DNA from: Pseudarthrobacter sp. W1I19
GTDB taxonomy: Bacteria > Actinomycetota > Actinomycetes > Actinomycetales > Micrococcaceae
DNA length: 64,000 nt
Assembly: GCF_030817835.1 (NCBI RefSeq)
Contig: NZ_JAUSZR010000001.1
Coordinates: 2,480,001-2,544,000, forward strand
Direction of reading: 5' to 3'
This document shows, one piece after another, positions 48,542 through 60,134 of the stretch. Position 1 is the first letter of the stretch; every line of letters starts with the position of its first letter. The notes beneath the pieces are model-generated. The model worked only from the letters and a program-made list of their open reading frames with translations. It searched no databases and had not been told where the DNA came from. The translations under genes were made by a program, and so were the position numbers.

Positions 48542-49197
48542 GCTACATAACGTTTCCAGCGCAAGCCTTGGCCTAATGCAGTACACACACTGACCGGTAC
48601 GACTCCGACGCCACCACCGTGCCCGGGCACTGACTCTGGGCGTATCTCAAAAGACCTTTCCATGACGACAGATGCCCCATTATCAGTGACGAACGCTCCA
48701 TTGACCGAAGCGGGCGGCGCGCTCCTACACCGGATCTGTGCGAAGACGATCGCTTCTTTTGCACAGCACTCGAGACCGATTGACCGCAGTTTCTCACCTG
48801 TGACCAATGCTTGTTCTTTAGCACGCCCACGGGCCAGTTGCCTTTCAATAAAGGCTTTTGTGCAGAACTGGCACTCACCGATCCGCTCACCCGCCTACTG
48901 CAGAACCGGGCATCCTCGGGATCGACACATCAAGTTGAAACACCCCAATCTGACGTCAGGCAGGAGCCCGCAGCCGTTCAGGAGGGGGTGGTTTTCCTTT
49001 TCCTGACGGTGGTTGAGAGAGTTCTTGGACCCCAACCTGAGGCTTCCCGATGCTTGGGCCAGATGGGAATGTCGCTGGTACCCAAAGCCCCGGGCATCAG
49101 TTTCCACTCGAAAGGCAGAGGCAGGATGGCTGAACGTCTTCCCGTGCACGATCAGAAGGAGCCGCCGATCAGGGCCCAGCAGGGATGACGGCTGTCA
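48542..49197. other. Degraded or non-coding stretch
   Basis: About 650 bases after the aldehyde dehydrogenase relic. Frames of 80-125 codons exist on both strands (for example 48811-49188 forward), but none shows a family, a ribosome site or consistent codon use. It probably holds further relics. Confidence 0.5.
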
Positions 49198-49314
49198 GGC
49201 CCGCAACGGAACCTGCTCACGCCCTAAATTTCCAAAGTGTCAAGCTTTGTACACACTAAACGGCCAAGAAGCTTCTGACCTGCGGAAACACTGTGCCGGA
49301 GGTGGGACTCGAAC
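49198..49314. repeat. Left direct repeat with tRNA-Leu 3' end (att-like)
   Basis: Bases 49231-49314 match 59990-60073 without gaps at 79 of 84 positions, and weaker similarity extends left to 49198. The right 21 bases correspond to the T-arm and acceptor end of the tRNA-Leu gene at 60053-60134 (GGTGGGACTCGAAC), after which identity stops. This is how a tRNA-targeting integrase leaves an attachment-site copy at the far end of an inserted element. Confidence 0.85.
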
Positions 49315-49716
49315 TACCTTCCAGGCCTTGCAGACACTGGGAACGCGCGGAAACATGCGGAATCCACGACGGTTCGAGGGCTGTACGTCCCGGTCCGAAG
49401 CCGAGTCTGTGGACAGTGTCCACACATCATTTCCGTCACTTTAGAGTTTCCGGACCAACGACGGCACCCCCAGCGGCAGGATGCGGTCCCCGGTCCTGAT
49501 AGGTTTTGCCCAGCTCGAAGAACGGCCGCGGCTTCAACAATCCGGCAACCACGAAACGCCATGAAAGCACCAGACCTACGTTCGCCTGCTGGCCAGCTTC
49601 CAGGAGCTTCTTGGTCGCTGCCACCTCCTTTGAGCCATCCGTTGAACCGGCCTGCACCGCTTTCAAGGACGACGCGTCAGGAAACCGCCGAGCCGGCAAG
49701 CTCCCGAACCCGTTAG
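49315..49716. other. Inside left end of putative island, no recognised gene
   Basis: About 400 bases between the repeat and the toxin gene. An 87-codon reverse frame (49436-49699) lacks recombinase residues. An integrase would be expected here, but I find none. Confidence 0.5.
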
Positions 49717-50085
49717 CTAGCGCCTGATGAGATGCTTGCCAATCAGCCCGCCGCTGGCTTCAAGTGAGACATCACCGGCGGCGACCCCGACGACGAGATC
49801 AAATGCCGCATCGGTGCTGAAGTCATGCCGGTAACCGTTGATCCAGAGCATCAAAACCATCAGTGTCCACGCTGTGCGTTTGTTGCCGTCGATCAGCGGG
49901 TGGAAGCGCGCCACCGACTCCATCAAGGCCGCCGCCTTCATCGCCAACTGCGGATAAGCTTCCACACCCATGACTGTCGTTGCCGGACGCGCCAGAGCCG
50001 CGGCCAGCAGACCGATATCCCGGATACGGAACCCGAACCGGTCAACGACCTGCAACGCGTCTTCAATCTCGAGGTACTCGGTCAC
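49717..50085 (-). CDS. doc: Doc-type toxin (Fic/Doc family)
   Basis: The protein has 122 residues with the Doc catalytic motif ARFHPLIDGNKRTAW, in which His, Asp, Asn, Lys and Arg line the nucleotide site. Doc toxins phosphorylate EF-Tu and stop translation. The upstream gene encodes a ribbon-helix-helix antitoxin and overlaps it by ATGA. The pair lies at the inner left edge of the repeat-bounded interval, where addiction modules of islands often sit. Confidence 0.92.
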   Translation of the reverse strand: MTEYLEIEDALQVVDRFGFRIRDIGLLAAALARPATTVMGVEAYPQLAMKAAALMESVARFHPLIDGNKRTAWTLMVLMLWINGYRHDFSTDAAFDLVVGVAAGDVSLEASGGLIGKHLIRR

Positions 50086-50288
50086 GCATCCTCAAGGCGC
50101 GTCAAAAGCTCGGCGTCATGGCTCATCACGAAATCCAGACCCTCACCGATCTCGCGAGTGCGCCGGTGACGCTGGAGCACCAACTCCGCACCCTGCAGCA
50201 GCAAAGCCGACTTCGAGGTGTGCGCCTCGGCGGCAAGTTGGTCCAGACGACGATCGAGATCGTCCGGGACACGCAGATTCATAGCCAT
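50082..50288 (-). CDS. Ribbon-helix-helix antitoxin of the Doc pair
   Basis: The protein has 68 residues. The start MAMNLRVPDDLDRRLDQLAA with a following TSKSALLLQGAELVLQ helix pair is a CopG/MetJ-type ribbon-helix-helix. The C-terminal GEGLDFVMSHDAELLTRLED would wrap the toxin. It binds its own promoter as repressor in such systems. Four-base overlap with doc supports coupled synthesis. A classical Phd antitoxin is of another fold, so this is the RHH-Doc variant common in actinobacteria. Confidence 0.88.
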   Translation of the reverse strand: MAMNLRVPDDLDRRLDQLAAEAHTSKSALLLQGAELVLQRHRRTREIGEGLDFVMSHDAELLTRLEDA

Positions 50289-51024
50289 GCACTAATGGTA
50301 CCAAACCAGTACCAGGCGGCGTTTAGGGTAACTCGCTACATCTCTTCGCGGCGTGCCCGAACCGGTATCCCTAGGCCGGTCAACTGGCTGGTGCCCCAAC
50401 ATCCTCCAGCACTGACCTGTCGAAAAAACGGATCTCCCCCGTTGCCGCGAAGAACACAGGAACTACCGATGTGCTCAGGTCTTTAGACGTTTCGTAGATC
50501 TCAGCCGCACCCCCGTGCTTCCTCGCAACCGTTCCAACCAGCTCGGTACCGCGAACCCGAACAGTTCGATATTTGTAGCTCACCGTGACCCCTTCGTCGG
50601 CTAGGGCACACCCTACCCCCTGCCGCTTCGAGGAGGGTTGGCTCGCCATCGCAACATGTTCAATTTTCCGGACGCCGCCGTGCCGCGGCCGGTTGGTTTC
50701 AGCCAGGCGCGTGGAGTCGATGCCGCCAATTGCCGCCGCGGTGTTAGGTGCATCGACACCGTCATCGATGATTCCGGGTCCGACGCAGCCTCCCCCGGCG
50801 CTGACTACTCGACGACTGCTCATTACAGACGCACCTTAGGTGTGAACTCACGCAGCACCCGGGTCTCGATGAGTTCCTGCGGCGTTCTCACAGCAGCGTA
50901 GTCGGGCTTCACAGGCTGCCACGGCTGTCACGTGCTTGAAGTACCGGACGTGTCCGCGGCCATTGCGCTGCTGATGAAGGTCCCCTGCGGAGCCGCCGGA
51001 CTGCCGCGGCTCCGCCCGGGGACT
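50289..51024. other. Mostly uncharacterised stretch, one doubtful small gene
   Basis: About 735 bases. A reverse-strand frame 50380-50649 (ATG 50649, 89 codons) ends TSVVPVFFAATGEIRFFDRS and has plausible composition but no family. Nothing else is seen. The right end joins the stop of the hydroxyacid dehydrogenase. Confidence 0.35.
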
Positions 51025-52014
51025 CTAAACGGTCGTGACGCTGACCGCGCGCTTCGTCGCCGTTACGACTCCGCTTGGAATATCGCCACGGAGGACCGCG
51101 TCGAAGTTCTGCCACACGGTCGCGATGCGGCGCTGAACGTTTTCCCAGCCGACGCCTGCCATGTGGGGCGTGCAGACCACCTGTTCCATGTTCAGCAGCT
51201 CACTGGCGGTGTTCAGTGGCTCCTTCTCGTAGACATCAAGTCCGGCTCCTGCAATGCGTCCCTCGCGCAGGAACTCGATGAGAGCGTCCTGGTCCACGAC
51301 TTCGCCGCGGCCGACATTGACGAGAACGCCGCTGCGCTTCATCAGGGCAAGTTCGTCCCGCCCGACCAGCTTGTTCGATTGCGCGTTCAAGGGAAGACTT
51401 AGGCAGACGACGTCGGATACCGCCATGAGCTCTTCCAACGGCACGGTGCGGGCCGGGATCAGTTCCGACACGGTCAACGGGATCTCCGCGTTGTCGTAGA
51501 AGACCACATTGGCGCCGAAGCCGTGGTGGACGATCTTGCCGATCCAGCGTCCGATATTTCCCAGTCCGACTATGCCGACTGTTTTGTTGTACAGCTCCGA
51601 GTAGGACGTCTCATCCAGGTCTTCGCGCCATTTTCCGTCGCGCAGCAGCTGTGTAGAGGCTGGAATCCGCCGCATTACCGTCAGCATCAACGTCAGTGCG
51701 TGTTCCGCAACAGAGATGGAGTGGGTCTTCATTTGCGCAACCGGAACGCCGAGTTCGTCCAGGACGGCAACCGGAAGCTGCCCATAGCCGGAGCTCATGT
51801 ATTGAATAAACTGCACGTTCCTGGCGGCGCGGAATACCTCTTCGGGAACATCGACGCCGGAAATGAGGAAATCGGCGTCTTCGGCTTCGCGGCAAATTTC
51901 CGCGAGATCAGCCGATAGCGGCATCACTTTCATGGTAAAACCCTCTGGCGTCGATTCCAGAATACGGTCGATGTAGTCGTTCAGTGGGTTTACGAACAAA
52001 ACCTTGTATGTCAT
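51025..52014 (-). CDS. D-isomer-specific 2-hydroxyacid dehydrogenase
   Basis: The protein has 329 residues. The NAD site is IVGLGNIGRWIG, substrate Arg in NVGRGEVVDQ, Glu in YEKEPLN and His in TPHMAGVGWENVQRR. It differs clearly from the 21870 enzyme. It lies 70 bp after an isopropylmalate-dehydrogenase-like gene on the same strand and divergent from the CoA-transferase operon. It likely reduces or oxidises a keto/hydroxy acid in the same pathway. Confidence 0.88.
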   Translation of the reverse strand: MTYKVLFVNPLNDYIDRILESTPEGFTMKVMPLSADLAEICREAEDADFLISGVDVPEEVFRAARNVQFIQYMSSGYGQLPVAVLDELGVPVAQMKTHSISVAEHALTLMLTVMRRIPASTQLLRDGKWREDLDETSYSELYNKTVGIVGLGNIGRWIGKIVHHGFGANVVFYDNAEIPLTVSELIPARTVPLEELMAVSDVVCLSLPLNAQSNKLVGRDELALMKRSGVLVNVGRGEVVDQDALIEFLREGRIAGAGLDVYEKEPLNTASELLNMEQVVCTPHMAGVGWENVQRRIATVWQNFDAVLRGDIPSGVVTATKRAVSVTTV

Positions 52015-52084
52015 TGGTGCATCTTTCTTAGTCGGTGTCAGACGTCATGGCCGCGGCGGGTATGCCGGGCCGCCTGCCCGTCAG

Positions 52085-53155
52085 CTATGCCGGCAAAGCG
52101 TTGAGGATGGTCTCCAGAACTTCCTGGGTGTCGGCTGTCCCGCCCAGATCACGCGCCAGGGGTCCCGTCAGGAGTGCCGACTCGACCGCGGTTTGGATGT
52201 TCTGTGCTGCCTGAGTGCAGAGGTCATCTCCATGGCGTTCGCCCAGCCACTCCAGCATCATCGAGGCCGAGAGGATCATCGCGGTCGGGTTCGCGATGCC
52301 CTTGCCAGCGATGTCGGGCGCACTTCCGTGTGAGGGCTGAAACACGCCGCGTGTGAGGCTGACGTCGGCAGAAGGCGCGACGCCGAGACCGCCGACGAGG
52401 CCAGCGGCGATCTCGGAAAGGATGTCGCCGAAGATATTTTCTGAGACGACTACGTCGTACCGTTCCGGGTCGGTCACCATGTACATCGACCCGGCATCGA
52501 TGTAGTACTTTGCACTTCCGATATCGGAGTTTTTAGCCGCGACCTCGTCGAAAACCTTCTCCATCAAAACGTTGCTGCGCAGAGCATTTGATTTGTGCAG
52601 CAGCGTTACGTGTCCGGGAGTGCCCCGCTTGCGACGCGCCCGCGCCTGTGAAAACGCGACGTCGAAGAGCTTCTCGCACGTGGCCCGGGTGATGGTCATA
52701 CGATCACTCGCAGTCTCGTCGCTGGGCTCATGATGATCGGCCAGGCCAGCGAACATCCCTTCGGACGTTTCGCGGATGACGAGCATGTCGACGTTCTTCG
52801 CCTTGACAGGGCTCTCGACTCCCGGGAAAAGCCGAACCGGCCGTAGGCTTGAGAAGAGCCCGTAGTGGGCCCGCATTTCAACCTGGGCGCCCAGTTCAAG
52901 GCCCTCGGGTCCGCGCACGTCCGGCAGCCCCATCGCACCGAACAGAACAGCGTCTTTCTTGCCGATCTCATCCATATCGACCGCAGTGATCTTTCGTCCG
53001 GTACGCCGGTACAGGTCTGCGCTGAAGTCGTAGGACGTGTAGTTCAGCTTCAGCCCGTAGCGTCCTTCGCATTCCTTTAGTACCGACAGAGCCGCGTCGA
53101 CCACTTCAGTTCCGATTCCGTCTCCGGGAATGACAGCGATGTCATAGTGAGTCAT
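52085..53155 (-). CDS. Isopropylmalate/D-malate/tartrate dehydrogenase-family enzyme
   Basis: The protein has 356 residues. It opens [19 protein letters not shown], contains [11 protein letters not shown], the catalytic Lys in [21 protein letters not shown] and the cofactor motif [15 protein letters not shown]. Family members oxidatively decarboxylate 2-hydroxy acids. Leucine biosynthesis genes are absent here and the substrate loop is unlike LeuB, so a D-malate/tartrate or alkylmalate dehydrogenase role fits the 2-hydroxycarboxylate theme of the island. Specificity is inference. Confidence 0.87.
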
Positions 53156-53460
53156 TGGTCTTCCTGCCTTGCTAAGTGCGCGCGCTCCCGCGCCGAGTAT
53201 CCGCCCCAGGACAGGAAGCCGCGCCTACGCGGATGCCTTGTCCCCATGAGCTTTCCCATGTGGTGAGAGGCTTTATTTGCTAAGTGGGAAGACGTTAGCA
53301 GAAGATGACTTGGCTCACAAGGCAAATTCGGCCGATCGAGCTGCACTTTCTTGTTGCGCGGATCACAATCCGCTGCTACTGTCTATCCGCTCGATGACAA
53401 GCTTCTCCCACACAGTGAGAATCACGTCGAATTGCATTCCATGACGCAGGCAGGACAGAC
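53156..53460. promoter_or_regulatory. Divergent promoter region of the island catabolic genes
   Basis: A 305-base gap between two divergent operons, without a gene. It contains CTCCCACACAGTGAG (about 53404-53420), an imperfect inverted element resembling the palindrome before the GntP operon, and a TTCCCA/TGGGAA pair around 53256-53290. These are candidates for the IclR regulator encoded at 59169. Confidence 0.4.
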
Positions 53461-54696
53461 ATGACGCAGCAACTTCACCTTGAGGGGAACTCCCTCCCGC
53501 TCCAAGGCATCCGCGTGCTGGAGCTCGGCAGCTTTATCGCCGGACCGTTCGCAACTCGCATTTTTGGTGATTTCGGAGCTGAAGTTATCAAAATCGAGAA
53601 GCCCCACGGCGGCGATGAGTTGCGCGACTGGCGCAAGACCCGGGGAACGACCTCCATGCTGTTCCGTACCATCGGCCGGAACAAGAAATCCGTTGCCTTG
53701 GACCTGCGTTCCGAGGGCGGGCTTAAGGCAGTCAAGAAGATCGCCGCCCACTGCGACGTGGTGATCGAAAACTTCCGTCCCGGAACCCTTGAAAAGTGGG
53801 GTCTGGGCCCGGATGTCCTTCAAGAACTTAACCCCGACATCGTCATGGTCCGGATCTCCGGCTACGGCCAAACCGGCCCCTACAAGAACCGCGCCGGGTT
53901 CGGCAGCTCCGCAGAGTCCTTCGCAGGTTTGCGCTACGTCACCGGCGAGCCGGACCGGCCTGCAGGGCGTGCGGCGGCCAGCCTGGGCGATACCGTCGCC
54001 GGACTGTACGGGGTGATCGGCGCCCTGATGCTCATGCTCCAGAAAGCCCGCGGGCAGAAGACCGACACCTCCCAGGTAGTCGACGTCGCACTTTACGAAG
54101 GGGTCTTCAGCCTCCTCGAATCACTCGTCCCTGACTACGACGCCTACGGCATGGTCAGGAAGCGCACCGGCGGCGCCCTGCCCGGTGTCGTCCCCACCGG
54201 CTCCTACCTTTGCGGCGACGACCTCGAGGTCGTCATCGGGGGCAACTCAAACTCCGTGTTCGTCCGGCTCATGCGGGCGATCGGCCGGGACGACCTGGCC
54301 GAGGACGAAACACTCCTTACTACCCAAGGCCGCGGTGCCCGCGAGGAAGAGCTGAACGGCGCCATCTCCGCCTGGACCGGCAGCATGCCCCTGGCTGAGG
54401 TCCTGGACAAGCTGGACGACGCCGGCGTCCCCGCCGGCCCCGTCTACGACGCGCCGAGCATCGTTGTGGACAAGCACTACCTGGCCCGCGACATGATCCA
54501 GACCCACGAGGTGGTCATCGAAAACGAACCCGAGCTGATCCGCTTCCCCGGCGTTGTTCCCAAGATCCCCGGCCATCAGGGCCAGGTCAACTGGGTTGGC
54601 CCGGAACTGGGCGAACACACCCAGGAGGTCCTCCAGGAACTCGCAGAGATGAACGCTGACGAGATCAATGACCTCGGACTGCAGGAGGTGCGCTGA
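53461..54696 (+). CDS. Class III (CaiB/BaiF) CoA-transferase, copy 2
   Basis: The protein has 411 residues and is colinear with the 10615-11859 enzyme (GIRVLELGSFIAGPFATRIF; DFGAEVIKIEKPHGGDELRD; IGRNKKSVALDLRSEGG; ENFRPGTLEKWG). The catalytic Asp is expected in VVDVALYEGVFSLLES. The stop directly abuts the ATG of the lyase gene. It should activate a free hydroxy acid as its CoA ester. Full-length similarity to copy 1 and identical partnership suggest the same chemistry on related substrates. Confidence 0.92.
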   Translation: MTQQLHLEGNSLPLQGIRVLELGSFIAGPFATRIFGDFGAEVIKIEKPHGGDELRDWRKTRGTTSMLFRTIGRNKKSVALDLRSEGGLKAVKKIAAHCDVVIENFRPGTLEKWGLGPDVLQELNPDIVMVRISGYGQTGPYKNRAGFGSSAESFAGLRYVTGEPDRPAGRAAASLGDTVAGLYGVIGALMLMLQKARGQKTDTSQVVDVALYEGVFSLLESLVPDYDAYGMVRKRTGGALPGVVPTGSYLCGDDLEVVIGGNSNSVFVRLMRAIGRDDLAEDETLLTTQGRGAREEELNGAISAWTGSMPLAEVLDKLDDAGVPAGPVYDAPSIVVDKHYLARDMIQTHEVVIENEPELIRFPGVVPKIPGHQGQVNWVGPELGEHTQEVLQELAEMNADEINDLGLQEVR

Positions 54697-55569
54697 ATGA
54701 AGGTGGACATCACCGACGTTTTCCTGCGCGATGGCCTGCAGGACGAACCGGTCATCGTCTCCACTGCCCACAAGCTGGAAATAGCCCAGGCCCTCATTGC
54801 CGCTGGAATCAAACGCATCGAAGCCGCGTCGTTCGTAAACCCGAAACGAGTTCCACAGATGGCCGACGCCGCCGACGTCATCTCCTCACTGCCTGTGGTG
54901 AACGGCGTCACCTACACCAGCCTTGCCCTTAATGGGAAGGGCATCGAACGGGCCGTCGAGGCCGGCGCCACAGACATCCAGGTGGTCACATCCGCTAGCC
55001 AGGCGCACAGCACTGCTAATGCCGGGCAAGCCATCGAGGACGCTCTCGCCGGCATCGCCGCTTCCGTTGCCCGGTACCCGGAAACCCGTTTCTTCGCGGG
55101 CATTTCCACTGCCTTTACCTGCCCCTTCGAGGGCAGCATCGACCCCGAGTACCTGCTCCGCGTGGTCCGGGCCTTCTCGGACATGGGGATCAGGGACGTC
55201 GGCCTGGCCGACACCCTGGGCACCACGCCCACCGAACAGGTGCTTGCCAGCCTGAACCACGTCCGCGACGCCGAACCGGATCTGAAGTACTGCCTCCACC
55301 TGCACAACGCCCACCACCAGGCATTGGCAACAGCGGGCGCTGCCGTAAGTGCCGGCGTCGTCCGCTTTGACGCCGCGCTGGGCGGATACGGCGGATGCCC
55401 CTTCGCGCCCGGCGCCCACGGCAACATCGCAACGGAAGAGCTGGTCCGCTACCTGCACGATGCCGGCCACGAGACAGGCATCGACGAGGACCGCCTGGCC
55501 GACGCCGTACGCCTTGCCCGCGACGTGGTAGCGCAGTCCCCCGCCGCGCTGCTGGACCCGGCGCGCTAA
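54697..55569 (+). CDS. HMG-CoA-lyase-like enzyme, copy 2
   Basis: The protein has 290 residues. ITDVFLRDGLQDEP gives the DRE-TIM Arg/Asp, CLHLHNAHHQALA the metal His-x-His, and GGYGGCPFAPGAHGN the cysteine loop. It is paired with the CoA-transferase before it, as at 9.7-11.9 kb. The reaction would be cleavage of a hydroxyacyl-CoA to acetyl-CoA (or a homologue) and a keto acid. (R)-citramalyl-CoA lyase of this family is a known precedent and would suit the 2-hydroxycarboxylate transporter downstream. Confidence 0.88.
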   Translation: MKVDITDVFLRDGLQDEPVIVSTAHKLEIAQALIAAGIKRIEAASFVNPKRVPQMADAADVISSLPVVNGVTYTSLALNGKGIERAVEAGATDIQVVTSASQAHSTANAGQAIEDALAGIAASVARYPETRFFAGISTAFTCPFEGSIDPEYLLRVVRAFSDMGIRDVGLADTLGTTPTEQVLASLNHVRDAEPDLKYCLHLHNAHHQALATAGAAVSAGVVRFDAALGGYGGCPFAPGAHGNIATEELVRYLHDAGHETGIDEDRLADAVRLARDVVAQSPAALLDPAR

Positions 55570-55656
55570 AAACTCCCGACCGGCTCCCCCTGCTCAACCA
55601 CACAACGCTTCACTGATTCCTACACAAACAGGTCCCACCCACCATTTCCGGAGACG

Positions 55657-57095
55657 ATGATGTCAACAAACCCAGGAACCACGGAAACCACCAACGAACC
55701 AACGGATGACGCCATGAGCGAGATAAGCCCCGGCCCCGCCGGCGGTATCGGACACCCCGTCACCGAAACTGTCGGCGCCCGGCCGGGCACCCACTACCCT
55801 GGCCGCTTAGGATTCAAAATCGCCAGCGTCCCTGCTCCCCTCTACCTCACCCTGGCGGGCCTCGTCCTCGCAGCCGCCATCACCGGCAACCTTCCCGACA
55901 CCATGGTGGTCGGATTTGCCGCAACCATCCTGCTCGGTGGGCTGTTCATCTGGATCGGTAATCTGTTCCCGGTAGTCCGGGACTTCGGGCTGCCGACCGT
56001 CCTGTGTACCTTCGCACCCGCCACGCTGGCTTTCTTCGGCTTGATGCCCGAGAACCTGGTCACCGTTGTACAGAACTTCACCGACGGCCATGGCTTCCTG
56101 GACTTCTTCGTCGTCGGCATTATCGCCGGCGCCATCCTTGGCATGCCACGGGCACTCCTGCTCAAGGCAGGACCGCGCTTCGCAGTACCCATCATCGGTT
56201 GCCTTATCGCTACCTTCGTCCTGGTCGGGCTCCTGGCGTCCGTGACCGGGTTTGGATTCATCGAAGGCATTCTCTTCATCGCAGCCCCCATCATGGCTGG
56301 CGGCCTTGGGGTGGGTGCCCTGCCGATGTCCGAAATGTACGCCGCGAAAACCGGCGGCGACTCCGCGGCCTTCATGGGTGACCTGATGTCAGCCGTCGTC
56401 ATGGCCAACGTCGTCTGCATCCTCATCGCCGGAATCTATAACGGACTGGGCAAGCGGAAAAAGCAGCTCTTCGTCGGCTTCAACGGCCACGGCCAGCTCC
56501 TGCGAATCAAGGGCCGGTCCGACGAACTCACCGTTCCCCCGAAGCGGGACACATCCTCCTTCATCGCCCTGGGCAAAGGCCTGCTTATTGCCGGCAGCCT
56601 CTTTGTCTTCGGCGAACTCATCGCAGCCCTCCTTCCGGCGGCCTGCACCCCTACGCCTGGGCCATCATCGCGGCCGCTGTCGTCAAAGTCTTCGGGTTGC
56701 TCCCCCAGGACGTAGAAGACTCCGCCGCCGACTGGGGCGACCTGATCGGCACCGTCCTCGTTCCCGCACTCCTGGTCGGCGTCAGCCTCACCTACATCGA
56801 CATCACCGAAGTACTCGCCTCGCTGAGCAACCCGCTGTTCATCCTCCTGACCATCTCCACCGTTGTCATCGCCACCCTGACCTCCGGCATCCTGGGATGG
56901 CTGGTCAAGTTCAACTTCGTCGAAGCATCCATCACCCCGGGCCTGGTCATGGCAGACACCGGCGGCAGCGGTGACGTTGCAGTTCTCAGCGCGGCAAACC
57001 GCCTGCACCTCATGCCGTTCGCAGCCCTGACCAACCGGCTCGGCGGAGCGCTGGTCCTGTTCGTGACGTCGCTGATCGTCCCGTTCCTCGCCTAA
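55657..57095 (+). pseudogene. 2-hydroxycarboxylate transporter (2HCT/CitS family), frameshifted
   Basis: The first frame from ATG 55657 gives 330 residues of a 2HCT protein, including the first re-entrant GGxG loop (IMAGGLGVGALPMSEMYA). At about 56640 the frame breaks: LIAALLP should continue GLHPYAWAIIAAAVVKVFGL, which is in the +2 frame and runs to a stop at 57095. That part includes the second loop, TGGSGDVAVLSAANRLHLMP. One missing base in CCGGCGGCC restores about 480 residues. 2HCT carriers move citrate, malate or citramalate with sodium or protons. Real mutation or sequencing error cannot be separated here. Confidence 0.88.
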
Positions 57096-57106
57096 CAGCA
57101 GGAATC

Positions 57107-57144
57107 GACGGCGGCGGCCCGGCACGAAGCCGGGCGCCGCCGTC
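57107..57144 (+). terminator. Strong GC hairpin after the 2HCT gene
   Basis: Arms 57107-57123 and 57129-57144 pair over 16 bp with one bulged G around the loop ACGAA. The inner stem is GCCCGGC/GCCGGGC and the outer GACGGCGGC/GCCGCCGTC. It starts 12 bases after the stop. There is no T tract, but high-GC actinobacteria often use such hairpins. Confidence 0.7.
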
Positions 57145-57169
57145 GCCGGCCGGCAACATGAAGGACCAC

Positions 57170-57300
57170 CCTGACAGACAACGTCCTGGCCATCACCGGC
57201 CGCACCCCCTCAATCGCCTCCGGTGCCTGGGTGGCTCAGACAGCGACCGTGCTTGCCCAGCAACCATTTGGTATGAACGCGACGACCGTATCGGGCCGTT
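57170..57300 (+). pseudogene. N-terminal relic of a gamma-carbonic-anhydrase-like (left-handed beta-helix) gene
   Basis: After AAGGACC the forward strand reads TDNVLAITGRTPSIASGAWV and AQTATVL, then in another frame IWYERDDRIG. These match the start of gamma-carbonic anhydrase/PaaY-like proteins (G-x-P-x-I...W-x-A-x-A-x-V-x-G, then SVWYxxxxRxDxxxIxIG). Bases are missing between the two parts, the start codon is CTG, and nothing recognisable follows. It is a short dead fragment between the transporter and the ThDP enzyme. Confidence 0.5.
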
Positions 57301-57454
57301 ACTTTGGTCGCTTCCCCCTTACCCGGAAGGGATTCAGCACTGCGGCCGAACGCTTCCACCTTCACCGAACTCACACGCAAGCACGGCGACGCAGCACCGG
57401 TTTCTGTTACCCCCTGAAGCTGTCCTGCCGACCCACCTAGGAATGAGAAAAGCC

Positions 57455-59146
57455 ATGACGAGTACCAGCACCCACGTTCTGCCCGGCGGGACAGCGGCCC
57501 TGCCGGATGAAGGTCACGTGGCCGCGATCGTCGCCGACGTGGTCGCGGAGCGCGCAGGGCACCTGTTCGGCATTATGGGCAACGGCAACGTCCACCTCAT
57601 CAGCCGACTAACGCGCCGAGGCTGCCCCTTCACCTCCGCACGCCACGAGTCAGCCACGGTCGCCATGGCTGACGCCTACTACCGGGCAACCGGAAATATT
57701 GCAGCAGCGACCACAACCTACGGCGCCGGCTTCACCAACGCCTATACCACCCTCGCCGAAGCCCGGATAGCCCGGATCCCGCTGGTCCTGGTAGTGGGCG
57801 ACGCGCCCTCCACCGGCGCCCGGCCCTTCGACATCGACCAAGCCAAAGCGGCGGAAGCTGCAGGCGTGCTCACCCTTGTCGCCGGCCCCGGCAACGCAGA
57901 AGCCATCACCCACCGCGCCTTCGACCTCGCCCTGCAGAGCGTCCAGCCCGTGGTGCTGGCCGTCCCTTACGACCTGGCTACGGCCCCGCCCTCTGCGCCC
58001 CAGACCCTCGAACCGATGCCCGCCAAACCAGCCTGGCCCGCCGATACCGGCGAACTCGACCGGGTGGCTGAGCTCCTCGTTGCCGGCAAGCGGCCGCTGA
58101 TCCTGGGCGGGCGGGGCATGCTCCTGACCGACGCCGTGGCTCCCCTTCTCCAGCTCGGGGATCGGCTCGGCGCGCTCTTCATGACCTCGCTTATGGCAGC
58201 CAACGCGTTCAACAGCTCCTGGGACCTGGGCATCGCAGGCGGTTTCACAAGACTTCACCGCCTGGACATCGCCCGCCAGGCAGACGTGGTCTTGGTCGTG
58301 GGTGCAAGCCAAAACCTGTTCCAAACCCGCTATGGCACCTTGTTCCCCAGGGACACGAAGATCATCCGGATCGATAACGAACCGGACCCGGGTAACCTGC
58401 CGTCCGCGGAGTACATTCGGGCGGACATCCTCCCATTCGTCGAAGGCCTGCTGGAACGCGTGACCGCGGCCACGACAACAACGTGGCGGGACAATGCTCC
58501 CGAAGTAGGAAGCCAGGAGTTCCGATCGTTCCTGCCAAGTGAAAACCCCGAGGAGTTTGGTCCCGACGGCCGGCTGAACCCTCGGGCTGTCGTCGCCGCT
58601 TTGGAGCATATTTTGCCGGCTGAGCGCTCCGTAGTGATGGACGGCGGGCATTTTATGGGCTGGGCACCCATGTATCTGTCCGTCCCGGACCCGCATGGCA
58701 TGATCCTCGTAGGCACCGCGTTCCAGTCGATCGGCCTCGGGTTCGGGTCCGCTGCGGGCGTTTCCGTGGCCCGCCCCGACCGCACCACCGTGCTGGTTAC
58801 TGGTGATGGCGGCGGATTGATGGGCCTCGCGGACTTCGAGACCTTTCTCCGTGCCACCCGCAAAGGAGTGGTAGTGGTGCTAAACGACTCCGCGTACGGT
58901 GCAGAGCTGCACCAGTATGCCGTGAAGGGGCTGCATGACCAGGCGATGCTCATCGACGAAGTGGACTTCGCCGCCGTCGGCCGCGCCCTCGGTGCCGATG
59001 GAATCAAGGCAAACACCCTGGCGGACCTGGACCAGCTTCAGGACTGGCTGACCACCAACGACGAAGGCGTCTTCGTCCTCGACGTAGCCATCTCCCAGAA
59101 AGTCGTGGCCGAATGGATGGTCGAGTCCGTGGCCACCAAGGGTTAG
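57455..59146 (+). CDS. Thiamine-diphosphate-dependent enzyme (acetolactate-synthase/benzoylformate-decarboxylase-like)
   Basis: The protein has 563 residues from ATG 57455 (AGGA 13 bases upstream); ATG 57443 is possible, and a longer frame to 57158 covers the relic and is rejected. The catalytic Glu is in ARHESATVAMADAYYRATG, the central domain has LILGGRGMLLTDAVAPLL, and the ThDP/Mg motif runs from VTGDGGGLMGLADFET to VVVLNDSAYGAE. It probably decarboxylates or condenses a 2-keto acid, such as one made by the neighbouring dehydrogenases or the lyase. The product cannot be read from the sequence. Confidence 0.87.
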   Translation: MTSTSTHVLPGGTAALPDEGHVAAIVADVVAERAGHLFGIMGNGNVHLISRLTRRGCPFTSARHESATVAMADAYYRATGNIAAATTTYGAGFTNAYTTLAEARIARIPLVLVVGDAPSTGARPFDIDQAKAAEAAGVLTLVAGPGNAEAITHRAFDLALQSVQPVVLAVPYDLATAPPSAPQTLEPMPAKPAWPADTGELDRVAELLVAGKRPLILGGRGMLLTDAVAPLLQLGDRLGALFMTSLMAANAFNSSWDLGIAGGFTRLHRLDIARQADVVLVVGASQNLFQTRYGTLFPRDTKIIRIDNEPDPGNLPSAEYIRADILPFVEGLLERVTAATTTTWRDNAPEVGSQEFRSFLPSENPEEFGPDGRLNPRAVVAALEHILPAERSVVMDGGHFMGWAPMYLSVPDPHGMILVGTAFQSIGLGFGSAAGVSVARPDRTTVLVTGDGGGLMGLADFETFLRATRKGVVVVLNDSAYGAELHQYAVKGLHDQAMLIDEVDFAAVGRALGADGIKANTLADLDQLQDWLTTNDEGVFVLDVAISQKVVAEWMVESVATKG

Positions 59147-59168
59147 CCGAGCGTCATAGGCTTCTCAT

Positions 59169-59822
59169 ATGCCGTCTCCTGAAACCAACGGAAGCAACCG
59201 CACCCTCGAGCGCGCCGCATCGATCCTTGATGCCGTGGGCCGGTCCGCCGTGTCAGCCAGTGAGCTGTCACGGCAGACCGGCCTTTCGGTGTCCACGGCG
59301 CACCGACTCGCGCTGCAACTGGCTGACTACGGGTTCCTCCGCCGCACCGATGCCGGCACCTTCCGATTGGGCGACCGGTTCGTCCGCTCAGCGCTGGAAA
59401 ACGCCGGGATGCCAGTTCTCCGCGAACTGCGGGACCGGACCGGCGAAACGGCGCAACTGTGGGTGCGACGGGGAGATGAGCGCGTGTGCCTGCTCAGCGC
59501 CGACAGCCAGCACGAACTCCGCGCGATTATGCCTCCAGGCTCAAGGCTGCCCCTCCCCCAAGGATCCAGCGGCAGACTGCTGGCAGCCGAGGATGACGCC
59601 CTTGTCGAGTTGGCTGCAGTTGGCTGGATTGAGTCAATCGGTATTCGAACACCAGGACTGGGATCGGTAAGCGCCCCGGTACAAACCGACGAGGGAATCG
59701 TCGCCGCGGTCTGCCTTGCCATGCCACTGGCCCGCGTCATCGCATCTCCCGGTAAGGACCATGGTGACAAAGTCATTGAAGCAGCGCAGAGGATTGCGCA
59801 GGCTCTGCAGCAAAGGATCTAG
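59169..59822 (+). CDS. IclR-family transcriptional regulator of the island genes
   Basis: The protein has 217 residues, shorter than the usual ~250. The winged helix is VSASELSRQTGLSVSTAHRL then DYGFLRRTDAGTFRLG. The effector domain is trimmed: MPPGSRLPLPQGSSGRLLAA is followed quickly by SAPVQTDEGIVAAVCLAMPL, with the KGYALTxGE segment largely missing. It is co-directional with the ThDP enzyme 22 bp upstream and probably controls the divergent promoter at 53.2-53.4 kb. Confidence 0.87.
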   Translation: MPSPETNGSNRTLERAASILDAVGRSAVSASELSRQTGLSVSTAHRLALQLADYGFLRRTDAGTFRLGDRFVRSALENAGMPVLRELRDRTGETAQLWVRRGDERVCLLSADSQHELRAIMPPGSRLPLPQGSSGRLLAAEDDALVELAAVGWIESIGIRTPGLGSVSAPVQTDEGIVAAVCLAMPLARVIASPGKDHGDKVIEAAQRIAQALQQRI

Positions 59823-59954
59823 TAGCGGCTGCCCCGGCGAGGACAAATTTCGGCAAGACCGCCCACGTGCCGCGGGAAGAAGGAAACCCGTTAAAGAGGG
59901 CTTGTCTTCAGTTGTTGAGCAGGCATTTCGGGGCAACACGGATAGCTGCACTGA

Positions 59955-60073
59955 GGCCCGCAACAAAAACCTGCCCGACAACCTACAGCTCCAAAGTGTC
60001 AAGCCTTGTACACACTAAACGGCGAAAAAGCCTCTGACCTGCGGAAACACTGTGCCCGAGGTGGGACTCGAAC
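59955..60073. repeat. Right direct repeat including tRNA-Leu 3' end (att-like)
   Basis: Bases 59990-60073 are the partner of 49231-49314 (79 of 84 identical, no gaps); similarity continues weakly to 59955. This copy joins the complete tRNA-Leu gene, so it would be the site reconstituted next to the tRNA. The two copies bound about 10.7 kb. Confidence 0.85.
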
Positions 60074-60134
60074 CCACACACCTTTCGATACCGCATTTTG
60101 AGTGCGGCGCGTCTGCCAATTCCGCCACTCGGGC
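60053..60134 (-). tRNA. tRNA-Leu (anticodon CAA)
   Basis: The reverse strand folds as a class II tRNA. The acceptor stem pairs GCCCGAG (60134-60128) with CTCGGGC (60060-60054), and the discriminator A is at 60053. The anticodon stem CCGCA/TGCGG encloses loop CTCAAAA, giving anticodon CAA. The T arm contains GGTTCGAGTCCC. A long variable arm is present, as for tRNA-Leu. CCA is not encoded. It is intact although a putative island abuts its 3' end. Confidence 0.93.

Follow-up and report, generated by a model that had tools for sequence, protein, structure and literature searches.

The build-up of cis-mobilizable elements (CIMEs) through the decay of integrative and conjugative elements (ICEs) is established in streptococci (PMC5704250, PMC7563491): among their ICEs and IMEs, elements that have lost integration and transfer genes and kept their attachment (att) sites are lined up one after another behind the target gene, and the one closest to it is the least decayed. 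A related arrangement is found in Dehalococcoides, for which one study (PMC3146451) counts 15 ssrA islands without an integration module, proposed as possible CIMEs, and 16 with it. In the window analysed here, a stretch of 64,000 nt from Pseudarthrobacter sp. W1I19, an interval of 10.7 kb (49198-60134) ends on its right at tRNA-Leu(CAA), and we consider it probable that it represents the CIME closest to the tRNA in a tandem array built up there by accretion.

The locus resembles both systems and departs from each. The composites of Streptococcus salivarius hold two or three elements (PMC7563491), whereas the array described here has up to 15 site matches per genome and extends up to 532 kb from the tRNA. 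As in the Dehalococcoides islands, many tandem islands lie downstream of one RNA gene, are bounded by copies of its 3' end and are inserted at the T loop; those islands use a serine recombinase and a tmRNA target, with repeats within 100 kb (PMC3146451), while here the enzyme is a tyrosine integrase (PF00589) next to tRNA-Leu, the junction has two arms and measures 185 nt, and Doc toxins recur. Classification as an ssrA island of the Dehalococcoides type was rejected, the target being tRNA-Leu and the recombinase PF00589. A full-text search on Arthrobacter and Micrococcaceae islands, with most subscription papers outside its coverage, found no description of this array, and a full-text search on integrases driven by tRNA promoters likewise yielded none. 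The principle is known from CIME accretion and the ssrA islands; the genus-wide scale and the fixed anatomy appear to be new.

Junction sites behind tRNA-Leu(CAA)

An earlier note, made from the letters of this stretch, had proposed an island bounded by two copies of an 84-nt block. In an ungapped comparison within the window, 49231-49314 and 59990-60073 were identical at 79 of 84 positions with zero gaps, just as that note had reported, and the runner-up match to the block reached only 38/84 on the forward and 40/84 on the reverse strand, which rules out a chance repeat. The repeat extends to ~120 nt once gaps are allowed in the alignment. The two copies cease to resemble each other at GACTCGAAC, within the T arm of tRNA-Leu, and both the sequence and the tRNA call place a whole tRNA in the right copy alone, again as had been claimed. 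The common part consists of the last 22 nt of the tRNA together with sequence downstream of it. No clear departure was seen in the base composition of the interval. The features of the junction are:

60052-60134, minus strand: tRNA-Leu(CAA), the insertion target, 3' end towards the array (ARAGORN and Rfam RF00005)
59990-60073, plus strand: site C, tRNA-proximal half site of P arm and tRNA 3' end, 79/84 to 49231-49314; nhmmer half-site match to model positions 2-75
49242-49425, plus strand: site B, complete unit of P arm, tRNA 3' core and P' arm; nhmmer E 1.6e-55 and covariance model match G000:C1:2529242-2529425, E 5.3e-42 (site B is itself among the 31 copies behind the nhmmer profile and is likewise included in the covariance model, so these E values are not independent)
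49293-49314, plus strand: tRNA-derived core of site B, counterpart of 60052-60073 with one mismatch, read from the sequence
49408-49424, no strand assigned: palindrome TGTGGACA-G-TGTCCACA, end of the P' arm, from the sequence and a complementarity test

Alignment of 31 copies, two of them belonging to the window genome and 29 to relatives, delimits a sharply bounded unit made up of P, the tRNA 3' core and P'. The P' arm measures ~110 nt and terminates in GTGTGGACATTGTCCACAC, both in these 31 copies and in the 35 of a later set. Palindromes could be parsed in 31 of the 35 units, and their middle dinucleotides were exactly complementary in 27 of the 31 (shuffle p 0.0002). The site at the tRNA corresponds to P and core alone, the first half of the ~185-nt unit, and site B has both arms; the left repeat is thus a full two-armed site and not the plain 84-nt block of the earlier note. 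If elements had integrated in tandem, then P-core-P' should separate neighbouring elements and P-core-tRNA should stand beside the tRNA, and exactly this was found.

The window genome (G000; 4.81 Mb, one contig) contains two more matches to the left copy of the block, the tRNA site at 2539955 and a third site, site A, at 2458986-2459119, 70 kb left of the 10.7-kb interval. The presence of site A in the same genome rules out an island with two repeats as the whole story. Sites A and B resemble each other to the left of the core as well as to its right. In B only, a stretch of ~900 bp with a toxin-antitoxin pair intervenes, so that the likeness falls into two parts of the window:

48940-49432, plus strand: stretch homologous to site A (G000:C1:2458720-2459221), 79% over ~500 nt
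50349-50644, plus strand: second site A-like stretch, 90% over ~300 nt

Of the three genomes with the tRNA site alone, G117 is the closest by flank identity. On the right side of the tRNA the two genomes are collinear at 89-94%; on the left, collinearity resumes only at 2326.7 kb of G000 and 2077.0 kb of G117, with a few scattered similar stretches between. The variable block that ends at the tRNA therefore measures 213 kb in G000 and 32 kb in G117, and the G117 block has zero full units and one P' half site. The interval is thus not a single isolated island, as had been thought, but belongs to a 213-kb variable block that contains at least three junction sites, and is the module of that block next to the tRNA. 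The earlier note had also looked to strains without the cargo in which the only copy of the block borders on the sequence left of 49198; none was found, G117 being free of the cargo but having other genes on the left. A gene resembling glycogen-debranching enzyme (PF14742, scanned for the copy at 2461238) recurs in the variable blocks, near 2349989, 2427154 and 2461238 of G000:C1 and near 2106182 of G117:C1; the copies share 71-76% identity and have opposite orientation in the two genomes.

We searched 121 genomes of the genus, scoring up to five candidates per genome, and matched the tRNA site with its flank in 120 and the block around B in 114. On the 44 near-complete genus genomes the profile model gave 257 matches, tRNA half sites counted, with a median of 5.5 and a maximum of 15 per genome; 41 of the 44 had two or more. 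Strand, side and spacing were determined for the best 150 of the 257 matches, a set from which weaker, nearer units may escape. Nearly all of these units (149/150) were on the strand of the tRNA, and 147/150 lay on the downstream side of tRNA-Leu and less than 1 Mb away from it, their distances being 8-532 kb; a unit of G094 counts among them only if its contig is circular, as we assumed. Their spacing had quartiles of 9.2, 23.2 and 44.1 kb and a minimum of 0.26 kb. Beyond the genus, 149 genomes of the family were searched, and 12 of them, from six genera, had strong matches. The finding that the earlier note had named as fatal, a dispersed repeat unrelated to tRNA-Leu, did not emerge: the block is repeated, yet 147 of the 150 best-listed copies are downstream of tRNA-Leu(CAA). 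The array is best read as older and newer mobile islands layered by repeated insertion at this tRNA, and it recurs in most of the Arthrobacter species that were examined as well as in some genera related to them. One pair of units, G035:C1:437665 and 437927, is only 262 bp apart and recalls the microCIMEs of S. salivarius, which measure 130-220 bp (PMC7563491).

The tRNA-adjacent integrase and its relics

In relatives, a tyrosine integrase gene (int) begins directly behind tRNA-Leu(CAA) and reads away from it. Full-length integrase of at least 73% identity was present in 32 of the 121 genomes, in all 32 at the tRNA. Broken integrase stood at the tRNA in 11 genomes, and fragments occurred elsewhere at 11 contig-level places, none of them full-length. 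This census took the tRNA positions from the search for the tRNA site and set aside rows of at most 45% identity and, once a genome had been counted, any second or third fragment in it. Other contigs have five full-length copies of 61-65% identity, and at least two of these appear, from their near-identical coordinates, to be among the plasmid matches. In a named collection of 51 loci, which overlaps with the 121-genome set and hence is not independent of it, tRNA-Leu(CAA) lay directly upstream of int in 45, with the int start ~86 nt behind the tRNA; at least six of the 45 had a broken int frame. The G098 integrase has the catalytic domain PF00589 (E 9.6e-23), and the same neighbourhood of tRNA and integrase occurs in two other genera (G174, G194, G213, G215, G231). 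An integrase family at home beside tRNA-Leu(CAA) bears out the earlier reading of the repeats as the footprint of a tyrosine integrase. The ends expected of a CIME, a putative attL and attR, are retained: site B is complete, site C is a half site joined to the tRNA, and the same half site precedes int in the 45 loci.

The window itself has no PF00589 match in its 64 kb and no recombinase family among the interval ORFs scanned, so the absence of an integrase from the interval was rightly noted; a full-length integrase of the tRNA-Leu family was not found in G000 either. The earlier suggestion of a decayed or trans-mobilised element fits the appearance of the interval, which we would word as cis/trans-mobilisable. 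Possible traces of derivation from an ICE are found outside it, as relics at some array units and as a relic of int in G000 at 2436391-2436897, 103 kb from the module; no ICE genes are left in the 10.7-kb module. The gene adjoining the G000 relic (2435.4-2436.9 kb region) also follows the integrase in G074 and G026. Of eight fragments examined away from the tRNA, four (G100, G107, G043, G094) adjoin the P arm of a unit with a spacing close to that found beside tRNA-Leu, the site in G100 having lost its outer arm; a further fragment, in G026, is 3.8 kb from a unit. Since these relics adjoin units at native-like spacing, at least some array units would be former tRNA-adjacent junctions.

Distances between integrases correlated with those between chromosomal flanks (Mantel r 0.54, p 0.0005). 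Individual pairs clashed: L157 and L158 had an integrase distance of 0.000 and a flank distance of 0.129, and L152 and L172 a flank distance of 0.018 and an integrase distance of 0.287. Because identical integrases sit on flanks 12.9% apart, the tRNA-adjacent element appears to pass from one species to another. The same protein family includes tyrosine integrases from plasmids of Paenarthrobacter and from phages of Arthrobacter, Gordonia and Mycobacterium, the listed phage forms being at most 39% identical. The five nearest plasmid integrases (CP000476, NZ_CP053546, NZ_CP014572, NZ_CP094492, NZ_CP136442) are 60-63% identical and possibly form a plasmid branch of the tRNA-Leu integrase family. 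A 216-nt stretch around site B had zero matches in the phage and plasmid collections.

Behind int, G074 encodes a GmrSD-type nuclease domain and, 22-34 kb from int and ahead of any listed unit, TrbL/VirB6, TraG/TraD and a TraI-helicase-like protein. Judged by gene content, the tRNA-adjacent element of G074 is an ICE. In 12 genomes with intact int, 108-285 kb separated the tRNA from the nearest listed unit; in 26 genomes that lack intact int the distance was 8-166 kb (Mann-Whitney p 2.7e-6; in G098 a split unit stands at ~167 kb against 203 kb for the nearest listed one). This gap fits a large first-place element that shrinks after loss of its integrase.

The leader between tRNA and int (L151-L201, ~86 nt) contains two TGTNNACA-type motifs, and in at least 40 of 45 loci the two agree in their NN (TG, GC, GT or GG). 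Six of the 45 integrases were short readings and were dropped; in the remaining 39 sequences the best predictors of NN were integrase residues 5, 6, 14, 19, 24, 27 and 28, all within the first ~30. Residue 5 was R with TG or GG, S or A with GT, and W with GC. In a set of 56 sequences, 51 of them labelled and five without a paired code, the top five columns were again N-terminal, but the top ten included 365 and 191. The N-terminus may just be more variable, and the N-terminal signal may partly be relatedness. On a quick tree of the catalytic part, which has few supported branches, the NN label changes 13 times, and the supported branches alone force at least four changes for the GT class; three supported independent TG/GT pairs all went in the predicted direction, too few for significance. 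Leader motifs and N-terminal residues possibly make up a natural code of arm-site specificity. We also considered a 'lock', by which the arms of an array would avoid the code of the resident integrase; 91 units did not support it, and several genomes, G013 and G016 among them, share a code with their own arrays.

The 10.7-kb module and its cargo

From left to right the module runs from site B through Doc and the ribbon-helix-helix (RHH) gene, two dehydrogenases on the minus strand and five genes on the plus strand, CoA-transferase to IclR, to site C:

49717-50085, minus strand: Doc-family toxin (Fic/DOC), PF02661 E 3.5e-15, TIGR01550 just above cut-off
50082-50288, minus strand: RHH antitoxin, PF01402 E 4.2e-5
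51025-52014, minus strand: cargo, D-2-hydroxyacid dehydrogenase family, PF02826, PF00389
52085-53155, minus strand: cargo, isocitrate/isopropylmalate/tartrate dehydrogenase family, PF00180
53461-54696, plus strand: cargo, family III CoA-transferase, PF02515
54697-55569, plus strand: cargo, hydroxymethylglutaryl-CoA-lyase-like, PF00682, NF004283 above cut-off
55657-57092, plus strand: cargo, 2-hydroxycarboxylate (citrate-type) symporter, broken, PF03390, 339 + 151 residues in two frames
57158-59146, plus strand: cargo, thiamine-pyrophosphate enzyme, PF02776, PF00205, PF02775
59169-59822, plus strand: cargo, IclR-type regulator, partial C-terminal domain, PF09339, PF01614 positions 12-76 of 174

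The interval ORFs that were scanned gave metabolic, regulatory and toxin-antitoxin families only, with no recombinase, relaxase or transfer genes, and the ORF at 50380-50823 was without a family. The toxin-antitoxin pair that the earlier note had placed at the left edge is present as Doc (PF02661) and RHH (PF01402). The organic-acid gene set of that note is borne out by the Pfam matches, but the cluster is partly decayed, its citrate-type symporter being broken across two frames. The symporter frame is open in G088, G036 and G063 (487-492 codons, stop to stop), and the split is due either to a sequencing error or to decay within the module. In G009 the operon stands again 0.6 kb from a unit, which lies to its right and is followed by another Doc gene; on C3 of G088 it is 3.2 kb from a unit, there to its left.

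Module ends were surveyed in 67 unique units of 73 unit matches, taken from loci chosen for strong or neighbouring matches and not at random. An ORF of the Doc cluster lay just behind P' in 19 of the 67 and an antitoxin in 10; when DNA matches to the window's own genes were counted instead, the figures were 15 for Doc and 10 for the antitoxin. The 300-bp block behind the toxin-antitoxin pair was rejected as a general element end, since among the 67 units it occurred in sites A and B only.

Proposed accretion and its alternatives

In the mechanism that we propose, the attP of an ICE (P arm, tRNA 3' end, P' arm) would recombine with the 3' end of tRNA-Leu, restoring a whole tRNA in the process. 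After this insertion int would start ~86 nt downstream of the tRNA, in the direction of the tRNA, and could be transcribed by read-through from it. Read-through is a hypothesis that a pattern scan of L151 neither supports nor excludes: the scan gave zero promoter-like sites, and its one terminator-like site, against 0.7 expected by chance, lies upstream of the tRNA. A later ICE would enter the same tRNA and push the earlier one away, and the site between the two elements would again be P-core-P', as in site B. The integrase of the displaced element would fall silent, and integrase and transfer genes would then be lost by decay and deletion, with the ends and useful cargo being kept. Modules of this kind would move only with a new neighbour, so that an arriving ICE could excise the 10.7-kb module together with itself. 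Because a full-length integrase of this family was not found in G000, the module is expected to stay in place until another ICE comes in.

Several observations weigh against derivation of the modules by accretion and decay. Three of the 150 listed units are off the array (G022:C1:3838612, G050:C1:2926197 and G050:C1:2930583). The relics in G064 and G047 are 2-4.4 kb from partial sites only, and in G037 an N-terminal fragment beside a unit (L239, G037:C4:13764-14054) is inverted relative to the usual arrangement. Conjugation families were absent from the six ORFs of G098 scanned within 20 kb of int, and ICE nature is shown for G074 only. When the code of P' was compared with that of the next unit's P in 11 array stretches, a few neighbouring pairs matched (in G098) and most did not. 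The operon of the window also occurs on G088 C22, G036 C79, G063 C38, G061 C4, contigs on which no unit was detected, and in G009 the module end and the transporter, which is of another family, are unlike those of the window. Since the operon is also found on contigs without a detected unit, the cargo is not tied to the sites and would thus have been captured, not being essential to the module. Finally, in the flank survey the main integrase cluster was within 2 kb left of the P arm in only 6 of the 67 units, and a conserved non-coding left end of ~310 nt, which opens with a second copy of the TGTGGACAnTGTCCACA palindrome, stood beside P in 23 of 67 (e.g. L213, L216, L240). Simple ICE decay does not predict such ends, and they are the main loose end of the ICE-decay model; the units that have them may constitute a distinct class of modules that were never autonomous. 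Apart from these counts, an integrase fragment of 64 residues was seen at 2930780 of G050, close to the off-array units of that genome.

The alternative that survives best is an integron-like platform, in which a resident tRNA integrase would capture att-bounded modules without integrases in trans, and most modules would never have had one. Mobile integrons and superintegrons likewise hold long, one-sided arrays of co-oriented modules beside one integrase locus. The scarcity of integrase ORFs at the unit flanks, the ~310-nt left ends, the Doc ORFs on the right and unit spacing down to 0.26 kb are what this alternative can call on. The present array differs from integrons in its interquartile spacing of 9-44 kb, its tRNA-derived sites and the conjugation genes in one integrase element. 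Integrase fragments adjoin four array units at about native spacing, the conjugation genes of G074 are carried by the integrase element itself, and the clashes of L157/L158 and L152/L172 point to an integrase exchanged between species, not resident, despite the overall correlation with the flanks. We therefore regard capture in trans as unlikely.

A single, once-autonomous island that has lost its integrase and is unrelated to other islands, as the earlier note had proposed, would account for the two repeats, for an intact tRNA on one side and for an interval without an integrase. The two arms of the left site, the third site and the finding of arrays on one strand in 41 of 44 genomes refute it as a complete description, and it is now very improbable, although 'islet' is still usable as a word for the interval. 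Slightly less probable again is a dispersed repeat or a hotspot of homologous recombination with no site-specific recombination, which would suit the many diverged copies and the sequence common to A and B past the core, but not the fact that 147 of 150 listed units share one orientation and one side of a single tRNA, a core that is the tRNA 3' end, or the existence of an integrase family with exactly this neighbourhood.

Starting from accretion by ICE decay, we put forward, tentatively and with some doubt, a broader proposal. tRNA-Leu(CAA) might serve as a standing accumulation platform on which expression is confined to the integrase whose transcript is joined to that of the tRNA, and each arrival silences its predecessor, freezing its cargo into a growing store of modules, many of them guarded by Doc at their P' ends; the middle dinucleotide of the paired TGTNNACA motifs might be read by a few N-terminal integrase residues and have been switched repeatedly. 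Gene stores of this size are usually recognised strain by strain, and here one 185-nt pattern delimits the modules across the genus. The layers stacked behind one tRNA could therefore serve as a record of how soil actinobacteria gained genes over time, and the array offers a natural experiment on the movement of integrase-less islets, on stabilisation by toxin-antitoxin pairs and on the change of arm-site specificity in tyrosine integrases.

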